Part shown: piece by piece, positions 9,393-37,169 of the stretch
How the letters are laid out: every line of letters starts with the position of its first letter
How positions within the stretch are numbered: the first letter of the stretch is position 1
Translations under genes and position numbers: made by a program
Assembly: GCF_015291745.1 (NCBI RefSeq)
Contig: NZ_CP030059.1
Coordinates: 2,073,501 to 2,137,500, forward strand
Direction: 5' to 3'
From: Bradyrhizobium sp. CCBAU 53351
GTDB lineage: Bacteria > Pseudomonadota > Alphaproteobacteria > Rhizobiales > Xanthobacteraceae
Length of the DNA stretch: 64,000 bases
The notes under the pieces: model-generated
Seen by the model: the letters and a program-made list of their open reading frames with translations, nothing else
Databases searched by the model: none
Told to the model about the DNA's origin: nothing

Positions 9393-9932
9393 ATGGACCA
9401 GTTCGACGTCAAATTGCTGCAGGCGCTTCAATCCGATGGACGTCTGTCGAATTTCGAGCTGGCCGACATCGTGGGTTTGTCGGCATCGCAATGCTCACGC
9501 CGCCGCGCCGCGCTCGAAGATGCCGGCGCGATTGCGAGCTACCACGCCCATCTCGACCGAGAAGCGCTCGGACTCGGCATCGTCGTCTTCGTGCAGGTGA
9601 CGCTTGCGACCCACTCGCCGGACAATTCGCGGCGCTTCCTCAAGCTGATCGAGAGCCTGGAGGAGGTGCAGGAAGCCTATGCGCTCACGGGCGAAGCGGA
9701 CTACCTCGTCAAGGCGACGATCACCGATCTGAAGGCGCTCTCGCGGCTGCTCAACGAGGTGTTTCTGCCGCACGACAGCGTCGCGCATGTGCGCTCGTCC
9801 ATCGTTCTCGACCGCTTGAAGCAGACCTCGCAATTGCCGCTTGGGCACCTCATCCCTGCCGAGACGCGTGCTGCGGAGGGCTCCAGGTCGCGAAGGAAAG
9901 GTTCATCACAGCGATCTAGACAGTCCAGCTAG
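9393..9932 (+). CDS. Lrp/AsnC-family transcriptional regulator
   Basis: A 179-residue regulator. An N-terminal winged helix-turn-helix covers residues ~4-55 (L-Q-S-D-G-R-L-S-N-F-E-L-A, then V-G-L-S-A-S-Q-C-S-R-R). A RAM effector-binding domain covers ~70-145, with the family G-E-A-D-Y-L-V-K pattern. About 25 basic, serine-rich residues trail at the end. ATG 9393 has AAGGA upstream. The gene is divergent from hppD, the usual arrangement for an Lrp-type activator of tyrosine or aromatic amino-acid breakdown, so the effector is probably an aromatic amino or keto acid. It overlaps the end of the convergent marR gene by 4 nt. Confidence 0.88.
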   Translation: MDQFDVKLLQALQSDGRLSNFELADIVGLSASQCSRRRAALEDAGAIASYHAHLDREALGLGIVVFVQVTLATHSPDNSRRFLKLIESLEEVQEAYALTGEADYLVKATITDLKALSRLLNEVFLPHDSVAHVRSSIVLDRLKQTSQLPLGHLIPAETRAAEGSRSRRKGSSQRSRQSS

Positions 9933-10426
9933 CTGAGCGCTGCCGACAGCTTGTGCATCACCCGGTCGAGCACCTTCACTTCTTCGGCGGTGAGCACGCT
10001 CAGCAGCTCCGTCTCCCGCGCCAGCGCGAAGGGCACGATCTTGCGATAGAGCGTGCGGCCGGCCGAGGTCAGTGAGACGATCAGCTCACGCCGATCGTCC
10101 GGATGATGCTTGCGGCTGGCGACGCCGCGCGCTTCCAGGGCCTGCACGGCGCGGCTGACCTGCATCTTGTCGAGCGTCGTCAGCGGACCGATCTCCTTGG
10201 TCGCAATCTCCGCCCGTCCGCCGAGGATCGCAAGCACGCGCCATTCCTGCCGCGTCAGCGCAAAACGCTCGGAATAGACCTCGGCAACGGCGAGCGACAC
10301 CTGCTCGGCGAGGCGCGCCAGCCGGTACGGAAAATATCGCTGCAGGTCGAGCCCGCCGCCATCCTGCGCCGTGACACGGTCGGCGGCTGCGGCCCGGCCT
10401 CGTGCTTCACCCGAACATCCCATCAC
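9929..10426 (-). CDS. MarR-family transcriptional regulator
   Basis: A 165-residue MarR/SlyA-type regulator. A winged-helix core is visible: W-R-V-L-A-I-L-G near residue 60, the recognition helix T-L-D-K-M-Q-V-S-R-A-V-Q-A-L-E-A-R-G, then the wing with D-D-R-R-E-L. C-terminal helices form the dimer interface. MarR proteins in aromatic clusters usually repress and respond to phenolic or CoA ligands. The gene diverges from the VOC/FAD hydroxylase operon across a 119-nt gap that contains a FixK-type box. It may also act at the palindrome before hpaE; that is inference. Confidence 0.85.
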   Translation of the reverse strand: MMGCSGEARGRAAAADRVTAQDGGGLDLQRYFPYRLARLAEQVSLAVAEVYSERFALTRQEWRVLAILGGRAEIATKEIGPLTTLDKMQVSRAVQALEARGVASRKHHPDDRRELIVSLTSAGRTLYRKIVPFALARETELLSVLTAEEVKVLDRVMHKLSAALS

Positions 10427-10486: not shown

Positions 10487-10545
10487 ATCCAGGAAATAGT
10501 AACATCTGATACGAATTTCGCAACCGCAATCCAGGGAGCGAAATC

Positions 10546-11088
10546 ATGAAGATCGAGAAGATCCATCACGTCGCCTATCGCTGCGTCGACGCCAAGGCCA
10601 CCGTCGCGTTCTACAAGAAGGTCATGAACATGGATCTGCTCGGCGCCATAGCCGAGGACCGCGTGCCTTCGACCAAGGCGCCCGATCCCTACATGCACAT
10701 CTTCCTCGATGCCGGGAACGGCAACATCCTCGCCTTCTTTGAGCTGCCGAACTCGCCGCCGATGGGCCGCGATCCCAACACGCCGGAGTGGACCCAGCAC
10801 ATCGCCTTCCAGGTCAAGGACCTCGCCGAGCTCGAAGAGGCCAAAGCGCACGCGGAGGCCGCCGGCCTCGACGTCGTCGGCGTCACCGACCACACCATCT
10901 TCAAATCGATCTATTTCCGCGATCCCAGCGGCCATCGCCTGGAGATCGCGGCCTGGACGGCCACGCCCGATCAGATCGACCGCATGAAGTCGGTCGCGCA
11001 TGAGATGGTCGAGGAATGGTCGCGCACCAAGCGTCCGCCGCGCCACACCGCCTGGATGCACGAGAAGGAATTCGCGGACGCGCATTGA
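10546..11088 (+). CDS. VOC-superfamily (glyoxalase/dioxygenase-fold) protein
   Basis: A 180-residue VOC protein. It opens with the typical I-E-K-I-H-H-V-A-Y-R-C-V-D strand carrying the first metal-ligand His. A second half has Q-H-I-A-F-Q-V, and the closing motif is F-R-D-P-S-G-H-R-L-E-I with the Glu ligand. This set of His, His and Glu resembles a metal-dependent dioxygenase or lyase rather than a bleomycin-resistance protein. ATG 10546 follows CAGGGAG. It is the first gene of an operon with an FAD hydroxylase (27 nt gap) and a DUF2783 protein. It may process the hydroxylase's product; the substrate is unknown. Confidence 0.78.
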   Translation: MKIEKIHHVAYRCVDAKATVAFYKKVMNMDLLGAIAEDRVPSTKAPDPYMHIFLDAGNGNILAFFELPNSPPMGRDPNTPEWTQHIAFQVKDLAELEEAKAHAEAAGLDVVGVTDHTIFKSIYFRDPSGHRLEIAAWTATPDQIDRMKSVAHEMVEEWSRTKRPPRHTAWMHEKEFADAH

Positions 11089-11115
11089 TCTCCGGCCGTG
11101 CATCAGGAAGCGAAC

Positions 11116-12753
11116 ATGACGAGCTACATCTATCCGAAGTTCGGCTATCGACGTTCCCAGGAGCAGGCCGAGGGGATCGTGAAGCGGCATCCGATCGTGG
11201 TGATCGGTGCAGGTCCCATCGGCCTCACCGCGGCGCTGGACTGCGCGGCACGTGGCCAGCCGGTCGTGGTGCTCGACGACAACGACACGGTCTCGATCGG
11301 CTCGCGCGCGGTCTGCTACGCCAAGCGTCCGCTCGAGATATGGGACCGCCTCGGTTGCGCCGCGCCCATGGTCGAGCGCGGCGTCAGCTGGAACGTCGGC
11401 AAGGTGTTCTTCCGGGACGAGCTGTCCTACCAGTTCGATCTGCTGCCCGAGGCCGACCATCAATGGCCGGCCATGATCAATCTGCAGCAATATCATCTGG
11501 AAGAGATGCTGGTGGCCAAATGCAAGGCCAATCCGCTGGTCGAGCTGCGCTGGAAGCACCGTCTCATCAGCCTCAAGCAGGCCGCCGACCATGCGACCTT
11601 GGCGGTGGAAACGCCCGACGGCATCTTCACCATGGAGGCGCAATGGGTCATCGCCTGCGACGGCGCCAATTCCGACGTGCGCAAGATGGTGGGCGCCGAG
11701 TTCACCGGTCAGTTCTTCCAGGACCGCTTCCTGATCGCCGACGTCGCGATGAAAGCGGATTTCCCGACCGAGCGCTGGTTCTGGTTCGATCCGCCGTTCC
11801 ATCCCGGCCAGTCCGTCCTGCTGCACCGGCAGGCCGGCAACATCTGGCGGATCGACTTCCAGCTCGGCTGGGAGGCCGATCCCGATGAGGAAAAGCGGCC
11901 GGAGCGGGTGATCCCGCGCATCCGCGCGATGCTCGGCGAGGACACCGAATTCACGCTCGAATGGATCTCGATCTATCAGTTCGCCTGCCGTCGCATCGAC
12001 AATTTCCGGCAGGGCAGGGTGCTGTTCGCCGGCGACGCCGCGCATCAGGTCTCGCCGTTCGGCGCGCGCGGCGCCAATACCGGCGTCCAGGATGTCGACA
12101 ATCTCGCCTGGAAGCTCGCGATGGTGCTGCGCGGCGAAGCCTCGGAAGCCCTCCTCGACAGCTATCACGAGGAGCGTGCCTATGCCGCGGACGACAACAT
12201 CCTGAACTCGACGCGGGCCACCGACTTCATCACCCCGAAGACGAAATCGAGCCGCTATTTCCGCGACGCCGTGCTGGAGCTCGCCCGGCATCACGGTTTT
12301 GCGCGACCGCTGGTCAACAGCGGCCGGCTTTCGACGCCGACCCCTTATGTGACATCAGTGCTCAAGACTCCCGACCACGATGCGTTGCCGGGCAGCATGC
12401 GGCCCGGCACGAATGCGGCGGATGCGCCGATTGCGGTGGACGGCAAGCCCGCCTGGTTCCTGCATTGTCTCGGCGACGGCTTCACGGTTGTGGCCTTCGG
12501 GAAGGTGAGCGACAAGACCGAAATCACGGTGGGGCCGTTCGCGGCAAAACTCATTCTCGTCGGCCGTGACATCGAGGACCCCACAGGTCTCCTTGCGCAG
12601 CGCTACGGCGCTTCGCCCGGAACCACCTATCTGTTCCGCCCGGATCAATATGTTGCCGCGCGCTGGAGCGGATTCGACGAGGCGGAGATCACCCAGGCGC
12701 TGTTGCGTGCCGCCGGCCACGACACCGCCGACCGGACGGAGCTTGCCGCATGA
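11116..12753 (+). CDS. FAD-dependent aromatic hydroxylase (MhpA-like, class A flavin monooxygenase)
   Basis: A 545-residue flavoprotein monooxygenase. The N-terminal dinucleotide-binding motif G-A-G-P-I-G-L is near residue 35, the D-G motif with C-D-G-A-N-S near 190, and the FAD ribityl-binding G-D-A-A-H-Q-V-S-P-F-G-A-R-G near 310. A thioredoxin-like C-terminal domain follows from about 430. Relatives include 3-(3-hydroxyphenyl)propionate and related phenol hydroxylases using NAD(P)H and O2. ATG 11116 follows AGGAAG; a GTG at 11098 is also in frame but less likely. The downstream DUF2783 gene overlaps by 4 nt. The true substrate is not visible from sequence; a tyrosine-derived phenolic acid is plausible from context. 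Confidence 0.85.
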   Translation: MTSYIYPKFGYRRSQEQAEGIVKRHPIVVIGAGPIGLTAALDCAARGQPVVVLDDNDTVSIGSRAVCYAKRPLEIWDRLGCAAPMVERGVSWNVGKVFFRDELSYQFDLLPEADHQWPAMINLQQYHLEEMLVAKCKANPLVELRWKHRLISLKQAADHATLAVETPDGIFTMEAQWVIACDGANSDVRKMVGAEFTGQFFQDRFLIADVAMKADFPTERWFWFDPPFHPGQSVLLHRQAGNIWRIDFQLGWEADPDEEKRPERVIPRIRAMLGEDTEFTLEWISIYQFACRRIDNFRQGRVLFAGDAAHQVSPFGARGANTGVQDVDNLAWKLAMVLRGEASEALLDSYHEERAYAADDNILNSTRATDFITPKTKSSRYFRDAVLELARHHGFARPLVNSGRLSTPTPYVTSVLKTPDHDALPGSMRPGTNAADAPIAVDGKPAWFLHCLGDGFTVVAFGKVSDKTEITVGPFAAKLILVGRDIEDPTGLLAQRYGASPGTTYLFRPDQYVAARWSGFDEAEITQALLRAAGHDTADRTELAA

Positions 12754-12944
12754 CGCTGAATCTGTCGCCGAACATCGCCGACCCCGACGATTTCTACGCC
12801 GAACTGATCAACAGCCAGCGCGATCTCGACGAGGAGCAGGCCCTGCGCATGAACGCCCGCCTGGTCCTGTTGCTCGCCAATCACATCGGCGACCGCAAGG
12901 TGCTGACGGAGGCGATCGGCTGCGCCCGCAGAGGCGGCGGCTAG
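12750..12944 (+). CDS. DUF2783 small protein, partner of an FAD hydroxylase
   Basis: A 64-residue acidic helical protein with the DUF2783 pattern: P-D-D-F-Y-A-E-L-I, then M-N-A-R-L-V-L-L-L-A-N-H-I-G-D. Its ATG overlaps the hydroxylase TGA (ATGA), indicating translational coupling. DUF2783 proteins commonly sit directly after class A flavin hydroxylases and may be accessory subunits; their function is not established. It is the last gene of the operon starting at 10546. Confidence 0.8.
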   Translation: MTLNLSPNIADPDDFYAELINSQRDLDEEQALRMNARLVLLLANHIGDRKVLTEAIGCARRGGG

Positions 12945-13151: not shown

Positions 13152-13592
13152 ATGGTAGGCCGAACCGTTGCCGCAGCGTTGCTGTTCACCGTCCTGAGCC
13201 CGCCAGCTTTGGCTCAATCGCCAGCGGACCATCAGAGCCATCATCCAGGACAGGACCAGGCGCCGGCGTCGCCGCAGTCGAGTTCTCCTGCAAATCCGTC
13301 CGCCGAGCGGCAAGGCTCGATGCGCGGTGGAGATATGATGGGAATGATGGGACAAGGAATGAAGGGGCATGGCGCGACAGGCGGTGATGCCGTGCAGTCG
13401 CCGGTCGTCTTCCGCATCATCTTCGCGCTGATGGATGCCGATGGCGACGGAACCGTCTCGTTGCCGGAGTTTCAGGTCGCTCACGAGCGAATTTTCAAGG
13501 CAATGGATCGCGACAAGGACGGAAAGCTCACCTTTGAGGAGATGATGGCGTTCATGCACAGGAACAAGAGCCACGTCGCGCCACAGCAGTGA
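13152..13592 (+). CDS. Secreted EF-hand protein
   Basis: A 146-residue protein: signal peptide (cleavage after A-L-A near residue 25), a His/Pro/Gln-rich linker, and a Met/Gly/His-rich stretch (M-M-G-M-M-G-Q-G-M-K-G-H-G) that could bind metal. Two EF-hand loops follow: D-A-D-G-D-G-T-V-S near residue 95 and D-R-D-K-D-G-K-L-T near 120. Calcium or other metal binding in the periplasm is likely. ATG 13152 follows GGAGGAAG. The stop overlaps the start of the metal ATPase gene (GTGA), so the two are translationally coupled. A periplasmic metal-handling role with that pump is inference. Confidence 0.8.
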   Translation: MVGRTVAAALLFTVLSPPALAQSPADHQSHHPGQDQAPASPQSSSPANPSAERQGSMRGGDMMGMMGQGMKGHGATGGDAVQSPVVFRIIFALMDADGDGTVSLPEFQVAHERIFKAMDRDKDGKLTFEEMMAFMHRNKSHVAPQQ

Positions 13593-15907
13593 GCCGAACC
13601 GAAGGGCAGGCGCGCCAGGCCATATCGTTTGATCGGGTCCTGCGATGGGCTCTGGTTGCGATCGCAATCGCCGGGTTGACTGCCGGCATTCTCGCGCGGG
13701 CCGCGGGCCGACCTGATCTGGCCGAGGTCGCGTGGTCGCTCGGCACGGCGCCTGTGATTGCAGGATTGGCGGTCTCGATCATCCAGGATCTGCTGACAGG
13801 CCGCGTCGGAGTGGACGCGATCGCTCTGCTCTCGATGAGCGCGGCGTTGGCGCTCGGACAGCCGCTCGCAGGCGCCGTGGTCGCGCTGATGTATTCCGGC
13901 GGCAACGTGCTGGAGGAGATCGCGGTCGCACGGGCGGAGCATGATCTCAGGTCCCTGGTCGATCGCGCGCCGCGGCAGGTCCATCGCAAGTCCGGCGAGC
14001 GCATCGAGGATGTCGCGATCGAGGACGTCACGACCGGCGAAGAGCTTCTGGTCAAGGCGGGCGAGATCATACCGGTCGACGGAGTGGTCGCCTCGGCCTT
14101 CGTGGTGATCGACGAGTCCGCGGTGACCGGCGAGCCGATCCCGGTGGAGAAGACACGCGGAAGCGCCGTTCTGTCCGGGTCTCTGAATGCGGGCGAGACC
14201 TTCCAATTGACCGTGACCGCGGCGGCCAGCGAGAGCACCTACGCGGGGATCGTACGCATGGTGACGGCAGCGCAAACTGCGAGAGCTCCCTTTGTGCGGC
14301 TCGCCGACCGGTACGCGCTGATCTTCCTGCCGGTGACTCTCGTCATCGCCTTTGTGGCCTGGTACATCTCCGGTGACGTGACCCGCAGTCTTGCCGTGTT
14401 GGTGGCGGCGACGCCGTGCCCCTTGATCCTGGCCGCGCCCGTCGCCTTCATCGCCGGGGTGGCGCGAGCCGCTCGCCGCGGCATTCTGGTCAAGGGCGGG
14501 AAGGCGCTGGAGGCGTTGGCCCGTGCGCACACCGTGCTGTTCGACAAGACCGGGACCTTGACGGTCGGCGGAGCGCGATTGCTGTCCGTCGAAGTTGCGC
14601 CGGGAGAGGATCCGGATGAGGTCCTCAGGCTCGGGGCGTCGCTCGAACAAGCTTCGCATCACGTGCTTGCCAAAGCCGTCGTCGGTGCGGCGCTCGCCCG
14701 CGGGCTCGCGCTGAAGCCGCCGGATCACGTCAAGGAGACCATGGGGTCCGGCCTCAGCGGCCGGATCGACGGACGCCAGGTGGTGGCGGGCTCGCGGGAG
14801 ATGCTTCTTTCGCACGCCGAGATGTCGCCGTGGGAGTTGCGGGCAATTCGTCGTGCGTCGTGGCGCTCGGCGCTGATCGTCTTTGTCGCGGTGGACGGCC
14901 GTCTCGTCGGCGCGTTGCTGCTGGCAGACGAATTGCGCGCCGACACGCCACGGGCGATCCGGCTGCTGCGCGATGCAGGCATCGCGCGGATGGTGATGGT
15001 CACGGGTGATCGTGCCGCGGCGGCGCAGGCCATCGGAGCGGCGCTCGATCTCGATGCCGTGCTGGCCGATCGCGTTCCCTCGGACAAGGTCGAGGCGGTG
15101 CGGAGCGAACAGCGTCTGCATCCGACCATCATGGTCGGGGACGGCATCAATGACGCCCCTGCGCTGGCCGTGGCCGATACCGGCGTCGCGCTCGGCGCGC
15201 GGGGTGCAAGCGCCTCCTCCGAGGCGGCGGACGTGGTGATTCTCACGGACCGGCTGGATCGGGTCGGCGAAGCGATCGTCATCGCGCAGCGGGCGCGGCG
15301 CATTGCCCTGCAAAGCATTTTCGTCGGGATGGGATTGTCATTTGCGGCAATGGCTGCCGCCAGCCTCGGCTGGCTCGATCCCGTGCCCGCCGCGATCGTT
15401 CAGGAGGTGATCGACGTCGCCGTCATCCTGAACGCGCTGCGGGCACTCAATCCGCCCCTGCTCAGGAATGGTCCGCGCCTCACCGCAGAGCAGGGACTGA
15501 CGTTGCATCACGATCATCAGGCGCTGCTCAAAGACCTCGATCGCTTGCGCCAGATCGTCGATGCGCTTGACGATGCGGAGCCCGAATCCACGGCCGCCTT
15601 GATTGGTGAGGCGCACCGACTGGTCCAGAGCAGCGTCGTGCTGCACGAACGCGAGGATGAAGACAGCGTCTATCCGAAGCTCACGCAAGTGCTGCGCGAC
15701 CGCCACGGGCTCTCTGCCATGAGCCGTGCGCATCGCGAGATCCTGCATCTCGCGCGGCTGCTCGCCCGGATCGCGGAGGATCTGCCGTCAGAGAAGATCG
15801 ACCGCTACCTCATTCGAGACGCCCAACGCGTGATCGAGGCGATCGAGACGCTGGTGCGCATGCACACGGCCCAGGAGGAGGACATCTACGAGGCCGTGGC
15901 GGCATAG
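13589..15907 (+). CDS. nia: P1B-5-type metal ATPase with C-terminal hemerythrin domain (Nia-like)
   Basis: A 772-residue P-type ATPase pump. Visible parts: no N-terminal heavy-metal domain; actuator motif T-G-E near 180; metal-path motif T-P-C-P-L near 275; phosphorylation site D-K-T-G-T near 318; hinge G-D-G-I-N-D near 517. From about residue 638 comes a hemerythrin-like four-helix domain (H-H-D-H, then H-E-R-E-D-E, A-H-R-E-I-L-H, M-H-T-A-Q-E-E-D). TPCP plus a hemerythrin tail defines the P1B-5 group, whose characterised member Nia of Sinorhizobium meliloti moves Ni and Fe and is expressed in nodules. A GTG start overlaps the EF-hand gene; the FixK-type box fits micro-oxic expression. Confidence 0.88.
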   Translation: MSRTEGQARQAISFDRVLRWALVAIAIAGLTAGILARAAGRPDLAEVAWSLGTAPVIAGLAVSIIQDLLTGRVGVDAIALLSMSAALALGQPLAGAVVALMYSGGNVLEEIAVARAEHDLRSLVDRAPRQVHRKSGERIEDVAIEDVTTGEELLVKAGEIIPVDGVVASAFVVIDESAVTGEPIPVEKTRGSAVLSGSLNAGETFQLTVTAAASESTYAGIVRMVTAAQTARAPFVRLADRYALIFLPVTLVIAFVAWYISGDVTRSLAVLVAATPCPLILAAPVAFIAGVARAARRGILVKGGKALEALARAHTVLFDKTGTLTVGGARLLSVEVAPGEDPDEVLRLGASLEQASHHVLAKAVVGAALARGLALKPPDHVKETMGSGLSGRIDGRQVVAGSREMLLSHAEMSPWELRAIRRASWRSALIVFVAVDGRLVGALLLADELRADTPRAIRLLRDAGIARMVMVTGDRAAAAQAIGAALDLDAVLADRVPSDKVEAVRSEQRLHPTIMVGDGINDAPALAVADTGVALGARGASASSEAADVVILTDRLDRVGEAIVIAQRARRIALQSIFVGMGLSFAAMAAASLGWLDPVPAAIVQEVIDVAVILNALRALNPPLLRNGPRLTAEQGLTLHHDHQALLKDLDRLRQIVDALDDAEPESTAALIGEAHRLVQSSVVLHEREDEDSVYPKLTQVLRDRHGLSAMSRAHREILHLARLLARIAEDLPSEKIDRYLIRDAQRVIEAIETLVRMHTAQEEDIYEAVAA

Positions 15908-15920
15908 GCGGCAATCGACC

Positions 15921-16397
15921 TCAGTGTTTCAGCGGTTGCCAGCCGGCGTGGTCAAAGTATTCGCCATATTGAGCGAGCGCCCGCACGATCTTGATGGCTC
16001 CCTCGTCGCGGCCGGTGCCGCTCTTCATCCTGGCTGCACCGTCGATGATCTGCTCGAGAACGAGGTGGAGCTGCTGGTCGGCCTGCTCGGGCAGCTTGCA
16101 GTTGCCCACGACGTCATCGACCTGCGCCTGGATTCGCGCGGCCAGAGCCTCGTACCGCGCGGACGTAAACACATTGCTGTGAATGGGTCCCAGCGATTGC
16201 CTCATCGCAAGGCTGATGTCGTTCATGCCGCGGCGCAAGACATCATCGGTCGGCCACTTCTTGCCATGGTCGAGCTGCGGCCGGGTGGTCGCGGTCGGCC
16301 CTTCATGCGCGTGTGGTCCGGCAGCGAGAGCAGGCTGTCCGAGGACAAGACAAAGTGCAAGGGCCGTCAGCGCAAACGATTTGGTCGGGATCATCAC
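15921..16397 (-). CDS. Putative periplasmic helical protein, 158 aa
   Basis: A Sec signal peptide is clear (K-S-F, hydrophobic core, cleavage after A-L-A-A near residue 26). The mature part has a His-rich start (G-P-H-A-H-E-G) and then long amphipathic helices suggesting a four-helix bundle, with a single Cys in G-N-C-K-L-P. There is no CXXCH, so it is not a cytochrome c-prime as such. It converges on nia (14-nt gap) and diverges from the ferric-reductase gene. A role in metal or redox handling is suggested only by neighbours. Confidence 0.7.
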   Translation of the reverse strand: MMIPTKSFALTALALCLVLGQPALAAGPHAHEGPTATTRPQLDHGKKWPTDDVLRRGMNDISLAMRQSLGPIHSNVFTSARYEALAARIQAQVDDVVGNCKLPEQADQQLHLVLEQIIDGAARMKSGTGRDEGAIKIVRALAQYGEYFDHAGWQPLKH

Positions 16398-16570: not shown

Positions 16571-16584
16571 TGAGTCAGCTCAAT
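16571..16584. promoter_or_regulatory. FixK/FNR-type box upstream of the ferric-reductase-like gene
   Basis: TTGAGTCAGCTCAA is a perfect TTGA-N6-TCAA dyad, and its central six bases are nearly self-complementary. Its centre lies 63.5 nt before ATG 16641, matching the spacing of the boxes at 10473 and 13080. It is 174 nt from the divergent periplasmic-protein gene, which might be co-regulated. Confidence 0.7.
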
Positions 16585-16640: not shown

Positions 16641-17990
16641 ATGCACAAGCTAAAACGGGTATTTTGGGGCAGTCTGGTGGTTCTCGTCCTGCTGTGGCTG
16701 GTTGCGGAGCCGCAGCCGTTCGGCCCGGGCTCCTTCTTCCCGCTTCGCGAACGAATGGTGCAGTTGAGCGGCGTGCTGGCAATCGGTTGCATGAGCATGG
16801 CGATGATCCTCGCGCTACGACCGCGCTGGCCGGAGGCTTGGTTGAGCGGTCTCGACAAGATGTACCGCTTGCACAAATGGTTCGGTATCGCCGCCCTGGT
16901 GACTGCCGCTATCCATTGGCTATGGGCCAACGGTCCGAAATGGGCGGTCGGCTGAGGGGTGCTGACTCGACCACAGCGTGGACCAAGGCCCGTCATCGAA
17001 AATCCGATCGAGGCGTTCTTTGGCAGCCTTCGTGAGCCAGCGGAGGGGCTGGGCGAATGGGCCTTCTACGGCGCCGTGGTGCTGATTGCTTTGGCGCTCA
17101 TTCAAATGTTTCCCTATCGGCTCTTCTACAAGACGCATCGGCTGCTTGCGATCGCGTATCTGGTTCTGGTCTTTCATGCGGTCAGTCTGATCAAGTTCAG
17201 CTACTGGATGTCGCCGCTCGGCTGGATCGTCGCGGTGCTGCTCGCCTTCGGCACGTGGGCTGCGGCTGTCGCGCTGCTGCGGCGCATCGGGGCTCGGCGG
17301 CAGGCGCAAGGCAGGATCACATCGCTCAAATATTATCCCGGCGTCAGAGCCATCGAGACCGAGATCGAGGTGCCTCACGGCTGGCCGGGGCATCGGCCGG
17401 GCCAGTTCGCATTCGCCACGTCCGATGTCTCCGAGGGTGCGCATCCCTATACGATCGCCTCCGGCTGGAACGCAGCAGACCCCAGGATCGTCTTCATCGC
17501 CAAGGAGCTCGGGGACCACACCAGCCGGCTGCGGGAGAAGCTCCGCGTCGGGCAGGAGGTGAAGGTGGAAGGCCCCTATGGGTGTTTCACTTTCGACGAT
17601 GATTGCGCGCATCAGATCTGGATCGGCGGCGGTATCGGCATCACGCCCTTCGTTGCCCGCATGAAGCAGGCGGCCATGAAGGATATTCCCGGTTGCTCTG
17701 TCGCGCAGGCGGTTGACCTCTTTCACACCACCGCTGACGTGGATGAGGAAGCGCTCGGCAAGCTTGCCGCAGACGCGCACCCGGCAGATGTCCGTCTCCA
17801 CGTCCTCATCGACGCCCGCGATGGACGACTGACCGGCGAGCGGATTCGCCAAGCCGTCCCGCAATGGCGCGAGGCGAGCATCTGGTTCTGTGGCCCGGCG
17901 GCGTTCGGGGAGGCACTCAGACGAGACTTCGGTGCGCAAGGCTTCCCTGTCGGACGGCGGTTTCATCAGGAGCTGTTCGCGATGCGATGA
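16641..17990 (+). pseudogene. Ferric-reductase-like transmembrane flavoprotein interrupted by in-frame TGA
   Basis: Two open frames (16641-16955 and 16959-17990) are in the same frame and together make one 450-codon gene of the ferric reductase/ferredoxin-reductase type. The first holds membrane helices with heme-ligand His candidates (Y-R-L-H-K-W-F, A-A-I-H-W). The second holds further helices (K-T-H-R-L-L-A, V-F-H-A-V), then an FAD domain (H-P-Y-T-I-A-S) and an NAD domain (G-G-G-I-G-I-T-P-F). The break is TGA 16953-16955 in K-W-A-V-G-stop-G; a Trp (TGG) would fit. ATG 16641 follows AAGGA. Unless read through, no complete reductase is made. Confidence 0.8.
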
Positions 17991-36128: not shown

Positions 36129-37169
36129 ATGGTGCGATGGATGCTTGGCGCGGCGATGTTGCTGGGGCTCGTCTGCCCGGCGCTCGCAGGCAATCTCGAC
36201 GCAAAGGTAGTGAACGATGCAGCGCGTCCGGAAAAGCCGCCGGCTGCGGACAAGGTCAACGCGCCGGTGACGAAGCTTCAGATCTTGCTCGATCGCGCGC
36301 AATTCTCTCCCGGCCAGATCGACGGCAAGCTCGGCGAGAACGCGCAGAAGGCGCTGAAGGCGTTCGCCGAGCAGAACGGTCTCGGCTTCGACAAGATCAT
36401 TGCCCCGGAACTATGGGACAAGCTGAACGCAGCGAGCGAGGGTCCTGTCGTCGTCGACTACAAGATCACCGACGCGGATGTGAAAGGGCCTTTCCTCAAA
36501 AAGCTGCCGGCCAAGCTCGAGGACATGAAGTCGCTGGAGGCGGTGGGCTACACCAGTCCGCTCGAAGGCCTCGCCGAGAAATTCCACATGAGCGAAGAGC
36601 TGTTGAAGGCACTCAATCCGGGAAAGTCCTTCGACAAGGCCGGCGAGACGATTGTGGTGGCGAGCGTGCCGGCGCGGCGTGAGCTTCCGCGCATCGCCAG
36701 GATCGAGATCGACAAGGCGGGCGCGACGCTGAAGGCTTACGAGGGCTCCGGGCGTCTGGTCGCGTTCTATCCGGCGTCAATCGGCAGTCCGGATCGGCCG
36801 ACGCCGACGGGGACGCTGAAGGTCACCGGCACCAACGAGCTGCCGACCTATCACTACAATCCCGAGTACAAGTTCAAGAGCGTGAAATCCAACAAGCCCT
36901 TCGAGATCAAGTCGGGCCCCAACAACCCGGTCGGATCGTACTGGATCGGGCTGTCGGCGCAGGGCTATGGCATCCACGGGACGGCGGAGCCTGACAGGGT
37001 CAGCAAGTCCGCCTCTCACGGCTGCGTCAGGCTCACCAATTGGGACGCGCGCGCGCTCGGCGAGAACGTCAAACGCGGCACGCCCGTCGTCTTTCTCGAT
37101 GCGCCGACGGACTCCTCCTCGAAGCAGCAGGGCAAGACCACCGGCAAGCGCGCTGCCAATACGCGTTAG
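36129..37169 (+). CDS. L,D-transpeptidase (YkuD) with peptidoglycan-binding domain
   Basis: A 346-residue exported enzyme. It has a signal peptide (cleavage after A-L-A near 20), then a peptidoglycan-binding-like repeat (L-L-D-R-A-Q-F-S-P-G-Q-I-D-G-K-L-G-E-N). A LysM-like stretch (Y-T-S-P-L-E-G-L-A-E-K-F-H-M) follows, then the YkuD catalytic domain with G-I-H-G-T and the active site S-H-G-C-V-R-L-T-N (Cys ~298). It forms 3-3 crosslinks or attaches proteins to peptidoglycan in the periplasm. ATG 36129 follows AAGGAACGAG. It converges on a VOC gene with 14 nt between stops. Confidence 0.88.
   Translation: MVRWMLGAAMLLGLVCPALAGNLDAKVVNDAARPEKPPAADKVNAPVTKLQILLDRAQFSPGQIDGKLGENAQKALKAFAEQNGLGFDKIIAPELWDKLNAASEGPVVVDYKITDADVKGPFLKKLPAKLEDMKSLEAVGYTSPLEGLAEKFHMSEELLKALNPGKSFDKAGETIVVASVPARRELPRIARIEIDKAGATLKAYEGSGRLVAFYPASIGSPDRPTPTGTLKVTGTNELPTYHYNPEYKFKSVKSNKPFEIKSGPNNPVGSYWIGLSAQGYGIHGTAEPDRVSKSASHGCVRLTNWDARALGENVKRGTPVVFLDAPTDSSSKQQGKTTGKRAANTR

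Follow-up and report, generated by a model that had tools for sequence, protein, structure and literature searches.

In Bradyrhizobium diazoefficiens, the FixLJ-FixK2(-NnrR) regulon works through a 14-bp site with the consensus TTGA/C-N6-T/GCAA, and the box printed for fixN lies at -70 (PMC6710368). The same source prints an operon, bll2330-bll2329-bsl2328, that encodes a VOC protein, a FAD oxidoreductase and a DUF2783 protein and carries TTGATCCAGATCAA at -73; anoxia raises the expression of its three genes 21.6-, 7.2- and 6.6-fold, and loss of nnrR lowers it 4.2-, 3.7- and 3.5-fold (PMC6710368). Further boxes are printed there for norE (TTGCGTCGGCGCAA), norC (TTGCGCCCTGACAA) and nnrR (TTGCGCTATCGCAA). 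On the metal side, Ni and Fe are the metals reported for S. meliloti Nia, an ATPase of the P1B-5 group (PMC9388753, PMC4932525). The FNR core of PMC2908626 also includes a heavy-metal P-type ATPase, RSP0690, which is tied to the cbb3 oxidase there. FixK also controls the pio iron-oxidation operon of Rhodopseudomonas palustris TIE-1 (PMC3050613).

Here we analyse a stretch of 64,000 nt from Bradyrhizobium sp. CCBAU 53351 (the window), in which a preliminary description had proposed a clustered FixK/FNR regulon joining iron reduction, Ni/Fe export and an aromatic hydroxylase (Table 1). As in R. palustris TIE-1, a FixK-type activator would stand over iron genes, although the genes and the iron process differ.

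Table 1. Boxes and genes of the locus, with positions in the window.
Feature	Position	Strand	Remarks
FixK2-type box 1, TTGATTCAGATCAA	10473..10486	+	66.5 nt from centre to ATG of VOC gene
VOC protein, first gene of operon 1	10546-11088	+	Pfam/NCBIfam
FAD monooxygenase, operon 1	from 11098 or 11116 to 12753	+	Pfam/NCBIfam
DUF2783 protein, operon 1	12750-12944	+	Pfam/NCBIfam; operon spans 10546..12944
FixK2-type box 2, TTGACTTGGCTCAA	13080..13093	+	65.5 nt from centre to ATG of EF-hand gene
EF-hand protein, first gene of operon 2	13152..13592	+	
P1B-type ATPase with C-terminal hemerythrin domain (P1B-5/Nia-like), second gene of operon 2	13589..15907	+	
158-aa protein of divergent gene	15921..16397	-	no Pfam family; signal-like start
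Fourth, degenerate box, TTGCTCCAGCACAA	16454..16467	-	66.5 nt before ATG, 63.5 nt before GTG of divergent gene
FixK2-type box 3 (feature under study), TTGAGTCAGCTCAA	16570..16583	+	64.5 nt from centre to ATG of ferric reductase gene
Ferric-reductase-like gene	16641..17990	+	in-frame stop at 16953-16955

Three boxes and the genes behind them

As had been described, three perfect TTGA-N6-TCAA dyads lie within 6.1 kb, and the spacing of 63-67 nt claimed for them holds when measured from box centre to ATG. The third had been placed one base too far along, at 16571-16584, though its sequence is present as given. The window contains four matches to the pattern, against 0.35 expected, and none of 100 shuffles reached four. 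The fourth match, at 36603, was ruled out as a promoter box, since it lies within two coding frames (491 and 195 aa) and precedes no gene start. All three main boxes fit the FixK2-regulon consensus, and they are spaced as FixK2 targets in print usually are, with the first base at -70 for fixN and -73 for the VOC gene; the 14-bp site and its position (-70 to -73) are the same as in the B. diazoefficiens regulon.

The centre of box 1 is also 56.5 nt from an ATG of a divergent MarR-type gene (9929-10426). Between this box and the VOC start lies an imperfect palindrome, GTAACATCTGATAC (10499-10512), which most VOC loci retain; an altered form of it is present in L114, a VOC locus without a perfect box. 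This palindrome could be an operator of the MarR-type gene.

Operon 1 has the same gene order as bll2330-bll2329-bsl2328, and the box starts at -73 in both. By gene order and box, it matches an operon in the published low-oxygen gene set. Its induction in anoxia would follow by analogy, the printed values being those of the matching B. diazoefficiens operon.

In operon 2, the domains recognised in the ATPase are E1-E2 ATPase, Hydrolase and, at the C terminus, Hemerythrin, and the protein is also matched as a heavy-metal P-type ATPase (Pfam/NCBIfam). Its membrane motifs include TPCP at residue 275 and QEVID at 605, and TPCP together with QExxD is typical of the P1B-5 (Nia-like) subgroup. Both this protein and S. 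meliloti Nia combine a P1B core with a C-terminal hemerythrin-like domain, and pSymA of S. meliloti 1021 carries an ATPase that is 46.6% identical to ours and that we take to be Nia. By this analogy, we infer Nia-like handling of Fe/Ni. The arrangement of the genes is different; here, unlike S. meliloti Nia, the ATPase is encoded by a second gene after that of an EF-hand protein. The S. meliloti pSymA gene has only a TTGC-N6-TCAA box, which lies inside the longest possible frame, as does the box in S. medicae.

Behind box 3, the ferric reductase frame runs for 104 aa to a stop that was absent from the preliminary description and continues in phase as a 343-aa frame. The gene is intact, with frames of 449-450 aa, in all 15 other genus loci. 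It is therefore probably broken in this strain, unless the stop is a sequencing error. Elsewhere in the genus, only the first part of a ferric reductase was found in G034 (L065). In G146, the ATPase gene is present twice, and the second copy is accompanied by a ferric reductase and a 158-aa gene of its own (C1:4057544-4064493; L213, L257). This second copy lies 2.5 Mb from the first, and its ferric reductase and 158-aa gene carry boxes.

It had further been said that such boxes are absent from the other promoters inspected. This is not quite so, as a degenerate dyad, previously overlooked, precedes the divergent gene and is conserved in homologous loci. Homologues of the 158-aa gene were found at 13 loci in 12 of the 146 genus genomes, and 12 of these 13 loci have a box headed by TTGC at 62.5-95.5 nt from the start of the gene, which was partly estimated. 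The perfect form TTGC-N6-GCAA occurs in eight of the 13, compared with 0-1 for permuted dyads. These eight loci fit the FixK2-regulon consensus, while the box in our strain (TTGC-N6-ACAA) falls outside it. In form, the box of the divergent gene resembles the TTGC-headed boxes of B. diazoefficiens norE, norC and nnrR.

Conservation of the boxes

We surveyed orthologous upstream regions from 146 drawn genomes of the genus, using as a control the eleven other permutations of the half-site, arranged as dyads and searched in the same sequences. Upstream of the VOC gene, a perfect dyad was present in 24 of 25 orthologous loci (at least 78% identity, our own included, and leaving out one copy without a locus, G034:C83), always 64.5-70.5 nt before the ATG. 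The box is kept even in loci with diverged flanks (L111-L113); the single miss, L114, has only TTGA-N6-GCAA at 98.5 nt. Five VOC paralogues, none above 46% identity, lack a perfect dyad within 300 nt, and one of them has TTGA-N6-GCAA.

For the ATPase we examined 35 loci, out of 49 matches counted as orthologues, and 34 of them have a perfect dyad within 800 nt upstream. This box lies 64.5-67.5 nt before the EF-hand start in all 14 loci headed by an EF-hand gene (our own included), 24.5-75.5 nt before the estimated ATPase start in 17 other loci, and at least 566 nt away in three (L033, L040, L249); in L031, no perfect dyad was found within 800 nt upstream of the ATPase. The ferric reductase gene has a perfect dyad 59.5-86.5 nt before its ATG in 13 of 16 loci. 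One further ferric reductase locus (L204) has the form TTGC..TCAA instead, and no box was found upstream in the other two (L211, L212). Permuted dyads, the sole control for kinship among these mutually related loci, whose counts are not independent events, gave 0 for the VOC gene, 0-1 for the ferric reductase gene and 0-3 for the ATPase gene. Judged by their conservation across the genus loci, the three boxes are real.

Some of the ATPase loci have features of their own. In L061 (G027), L062 (G021) and L069 (G007), several FixK-type boxes surround the ATPase gene, as if it were part of larger low-oxygen gene islands. The ATPase match in L070 (G016) is split, with about 19 residues missing between its two parts, and this copy may be broken.

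Outside the genus, we looked at 13 ATPase loci, namely 12 of 132 plasmid records, picked by hand, and G058. Eight of these 13 have a FixK-consensus box in the 800 nt that precede the start of the match, and three have a perfect dyad within 400 nt, with no permuted dyads in the perfect form. No FixK-consensus box was found within 800 nt at the ATPase loci of Methylocella, Methylocapsa, strain UR115, Rhizobium NLR16a and Cupriavidus.

Site density and gene order

The preliminary description took the three close boxes as pointing to a clustered regulon. The whole genome (8,343,321 bases) holds 129 TTGA-N6-TCAA sites, against 31 for a reversed-pattern control. When 129 sites were placed at random and uniformly, some triple within 6.1 kb arose in 40% of 5000 trials (P 0.40), and with fewer sites the probability was 0.33 (119 sites) or 0.20 (98 sites). 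A triple somewhere in the genome is thus nothing unusual, and we rejected the clustering of the boxes as evidence of regulation because it is weak. Local clustering says little in this case, whereas the conservation of the promoters is strong evidence. The genome count itself is inflated by a repeat; TTGACGGTCCTCAA was seen eight times among 56 sites listed of the 129, and in the four copies inspected (G000:C1:238214, 355528, 497001 and 558704; L004, L005, L008 and L010) it lies inside a repeated frame of 313-338 aa.

Among the same 56 listed sites, which reach up to 2.92 Mb, the second-tightest triple (7.4 kb) is found at the FixK2/fixNO locus. Eight sites fall within 95 kb spanning the box under study and the fix genes, with a Poisson P of 0.00015 for a stretch that was picked post hoc. 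A genome-wide scan gives P 0.057, and the 95-kb stretch was rejected as a dense region.

Random placement also raises the question of whether the three dyads are just accidental palindromes among the 129. The frequency of triples in random trials would allow this, as would the fourth match in the window, which sits inside coding frames. However, chance does not account for boxes retained in nearly all VOC and ATPase loci and in most ferric reductase loci when the controls reach 0-3, and we give this explanation next to no weight.

Gene order could speak for a true local regulon, in which selection would have kept the genes together so that iron reduction, metal export and aromatic hydroxylation respond to low oxygen as a unit. 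The VOC and ATPase genes lie within 12 kb of each other in 15 of the 21 genomes with both, and the ferric reductase and ATPase genes in 12 of the 14 with both. The latter linkage also occurs outside the clade of VOC-linked ATPases (G080, G084) and beside the second ATPase of G146. However, in a tree of 35 ATPases (leaving out the VOC-ATPase-linked genomes G016 and G089), all 13 VOC-linked rows fall into one clade of 14 rows, so shared descent can explain the linkage. The ATPase of G089 is 77% identical, and this genome may be a separate case of VOC-ATPase linkage. In two rows of the VOC clade (G137, G159) there is no EF-hand match, and the box lies 43.5 nt before the estimated ATPase start.

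The boxes also persist where the genes are apart. In G007, G014, G018, G023 and one G034 copy, the VOC and ATPase genes are on different contigs, although in draft assemblies such genes may still be near each other. The VOC loci of the separated genomes keep a perfect box, and so do the ATPase loci, with that of G007 having its box more than 600 nt away; in G155, the VOC locus alone was examined among the separated cases. With an ordinary site density, VOC-linked rows that share one clade of the tree, boxes kept by separated genes and a ferric reductase frame that is interrupted in this strain, the clustered local regulon is not supported as a unit, and we consider its selection as such unlikely.

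Candidate regulators

The genome encodes FixK2 (L265:4219-4923, minus strand; best PDB match 4i2o, E 2.9e-137), and this gene and the fix genes lie about 74 kb from box 3. Its neighbours encode a receiver-LuxR protein and a PAS histidine kinase (a FixLJ-like pair), the cbb3 oxidase (fixNO) and fixG-like and fixI-like products. The strain's own fixN has a dyad with its first base 70 nt before the ATG, and the printed fixN box is the reverse complement of this dyad.

We read 22 of 26 CRP-family hits in the genome, and four of these proteins have an E-x-x-S-R helix. Besides FixK2, they are another protein of the FixK type, a protein that carries N-terminal cysteines and a protein in which the helix reads ESLSR. 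A fifth protein has HTVSR, and the printed nnrR box, TTGCGCTATCGCAA, lies upstream of its gene. FixK2 is therefore the likeliest candidate, with the others possible. The boxes might instead serve mainly another CRP/FNR protein, either NnrR (responding to NO), FnrN (4Fe-4S) or the second FixK-type protein. The number of such proteins in the genome, including the one with N-terminal cysteines and the one with HTVSR, is consistent with this, as is the TTGC form of the divergent gene's box, shared with the printed nor and nnrR boxes. The printed VOC operon also drops 3.5- to 4.2-fold in the nnrR mutant (PMC6710368), and as these data rest on that mutant, NnrR may act too. On the other hand, the three main boxes have the form TTGA..TCAA, like the printed fixN box, while the printed boxes that depend most on NnrR (norE, norC) start with TTGC, a split that is our own reading of one table. 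Overall, we find it rather unlikely that another regulator is the main one.

The assignment of the boxes to the FixK/FNR type stands, given a conservation far above that of permuted controls, a FixK2 in the genome and a look-alike operon printed as anoxia-induced. From sequence, FixK2-type control of the three units is well supported as a prediction, and binding by FixK2 and the direction of control can be inferred. Our preferred reading, which we put at a probability of about 0.85, is that FixK2 activates the three units as part of a scattered regulon and that they are neighbours by shared descent. Following the known cascade from FixLJ to FixK2 and the known spacing of class-II activators, the three dyads would be FixK2 sites for class-II activation at about -41.5, followed by a short leader, with the second FixK-type protein, FnrN or NnrR as alternative binders. 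At low oxygen, FixLJ would make FixK2, which would switch on the VOC/flavin-monooxygenase operon, the operon for the EF-hand protein and the P1B-5 (Nia-like Fe/Ni) ATPase, and the ferric reductase gene, interrupted here, as three distinct transcription units. Nothing would set these units apart from the rest of the scattered FixK2 regulon, and their adjacency would be mainly the inherited gene order of one clade.

A possible iron/nickel module

The main text of the B. diazoefficiens paper (PMC6710368) does not mention the genes for the ATPase, the EF-hand protein or the ferric reductase. Likewise, hemerythrin and ferric reductase are both absent from the main text of PMC6515984, as are ATPase and ferric from that of PMC4999443, and SMa1163 is not mentioned in the top-listed FixK literature. 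The one paper retrieved for FixK together with Nia does not use the word Nia in its main text. Within the open-access main texts searched, we found no report of FixK2 with a ferric reductase in Bradyrhizobium, or of FixK with a hemerythrin P-type ATPase in rhizobia. FixK2-type control of a Nia-like pump and a ferric reductase, as predicted from the promoters, may be new.

A broader proposal is more tentative, and we regard it as possible rather than established. FixK2-type control of the Nia-like P1B-5 ATPase might be genus-wide and perhaps extend to other rhizobia, with some lineages adding a FixK2-controlled ferric reductase and a divergent gene at an NnrR-type (NO) site. Together, these would form an oxygen-/NO-gated iron/nickel module whose pump has its own diiron domain; no such module was found in the literature searched. 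If true, a ferric reductase and a metal pump that has a diiron domain built in would join a well-studied low-oxygen network, at strongly conserved sites that are directly testable.
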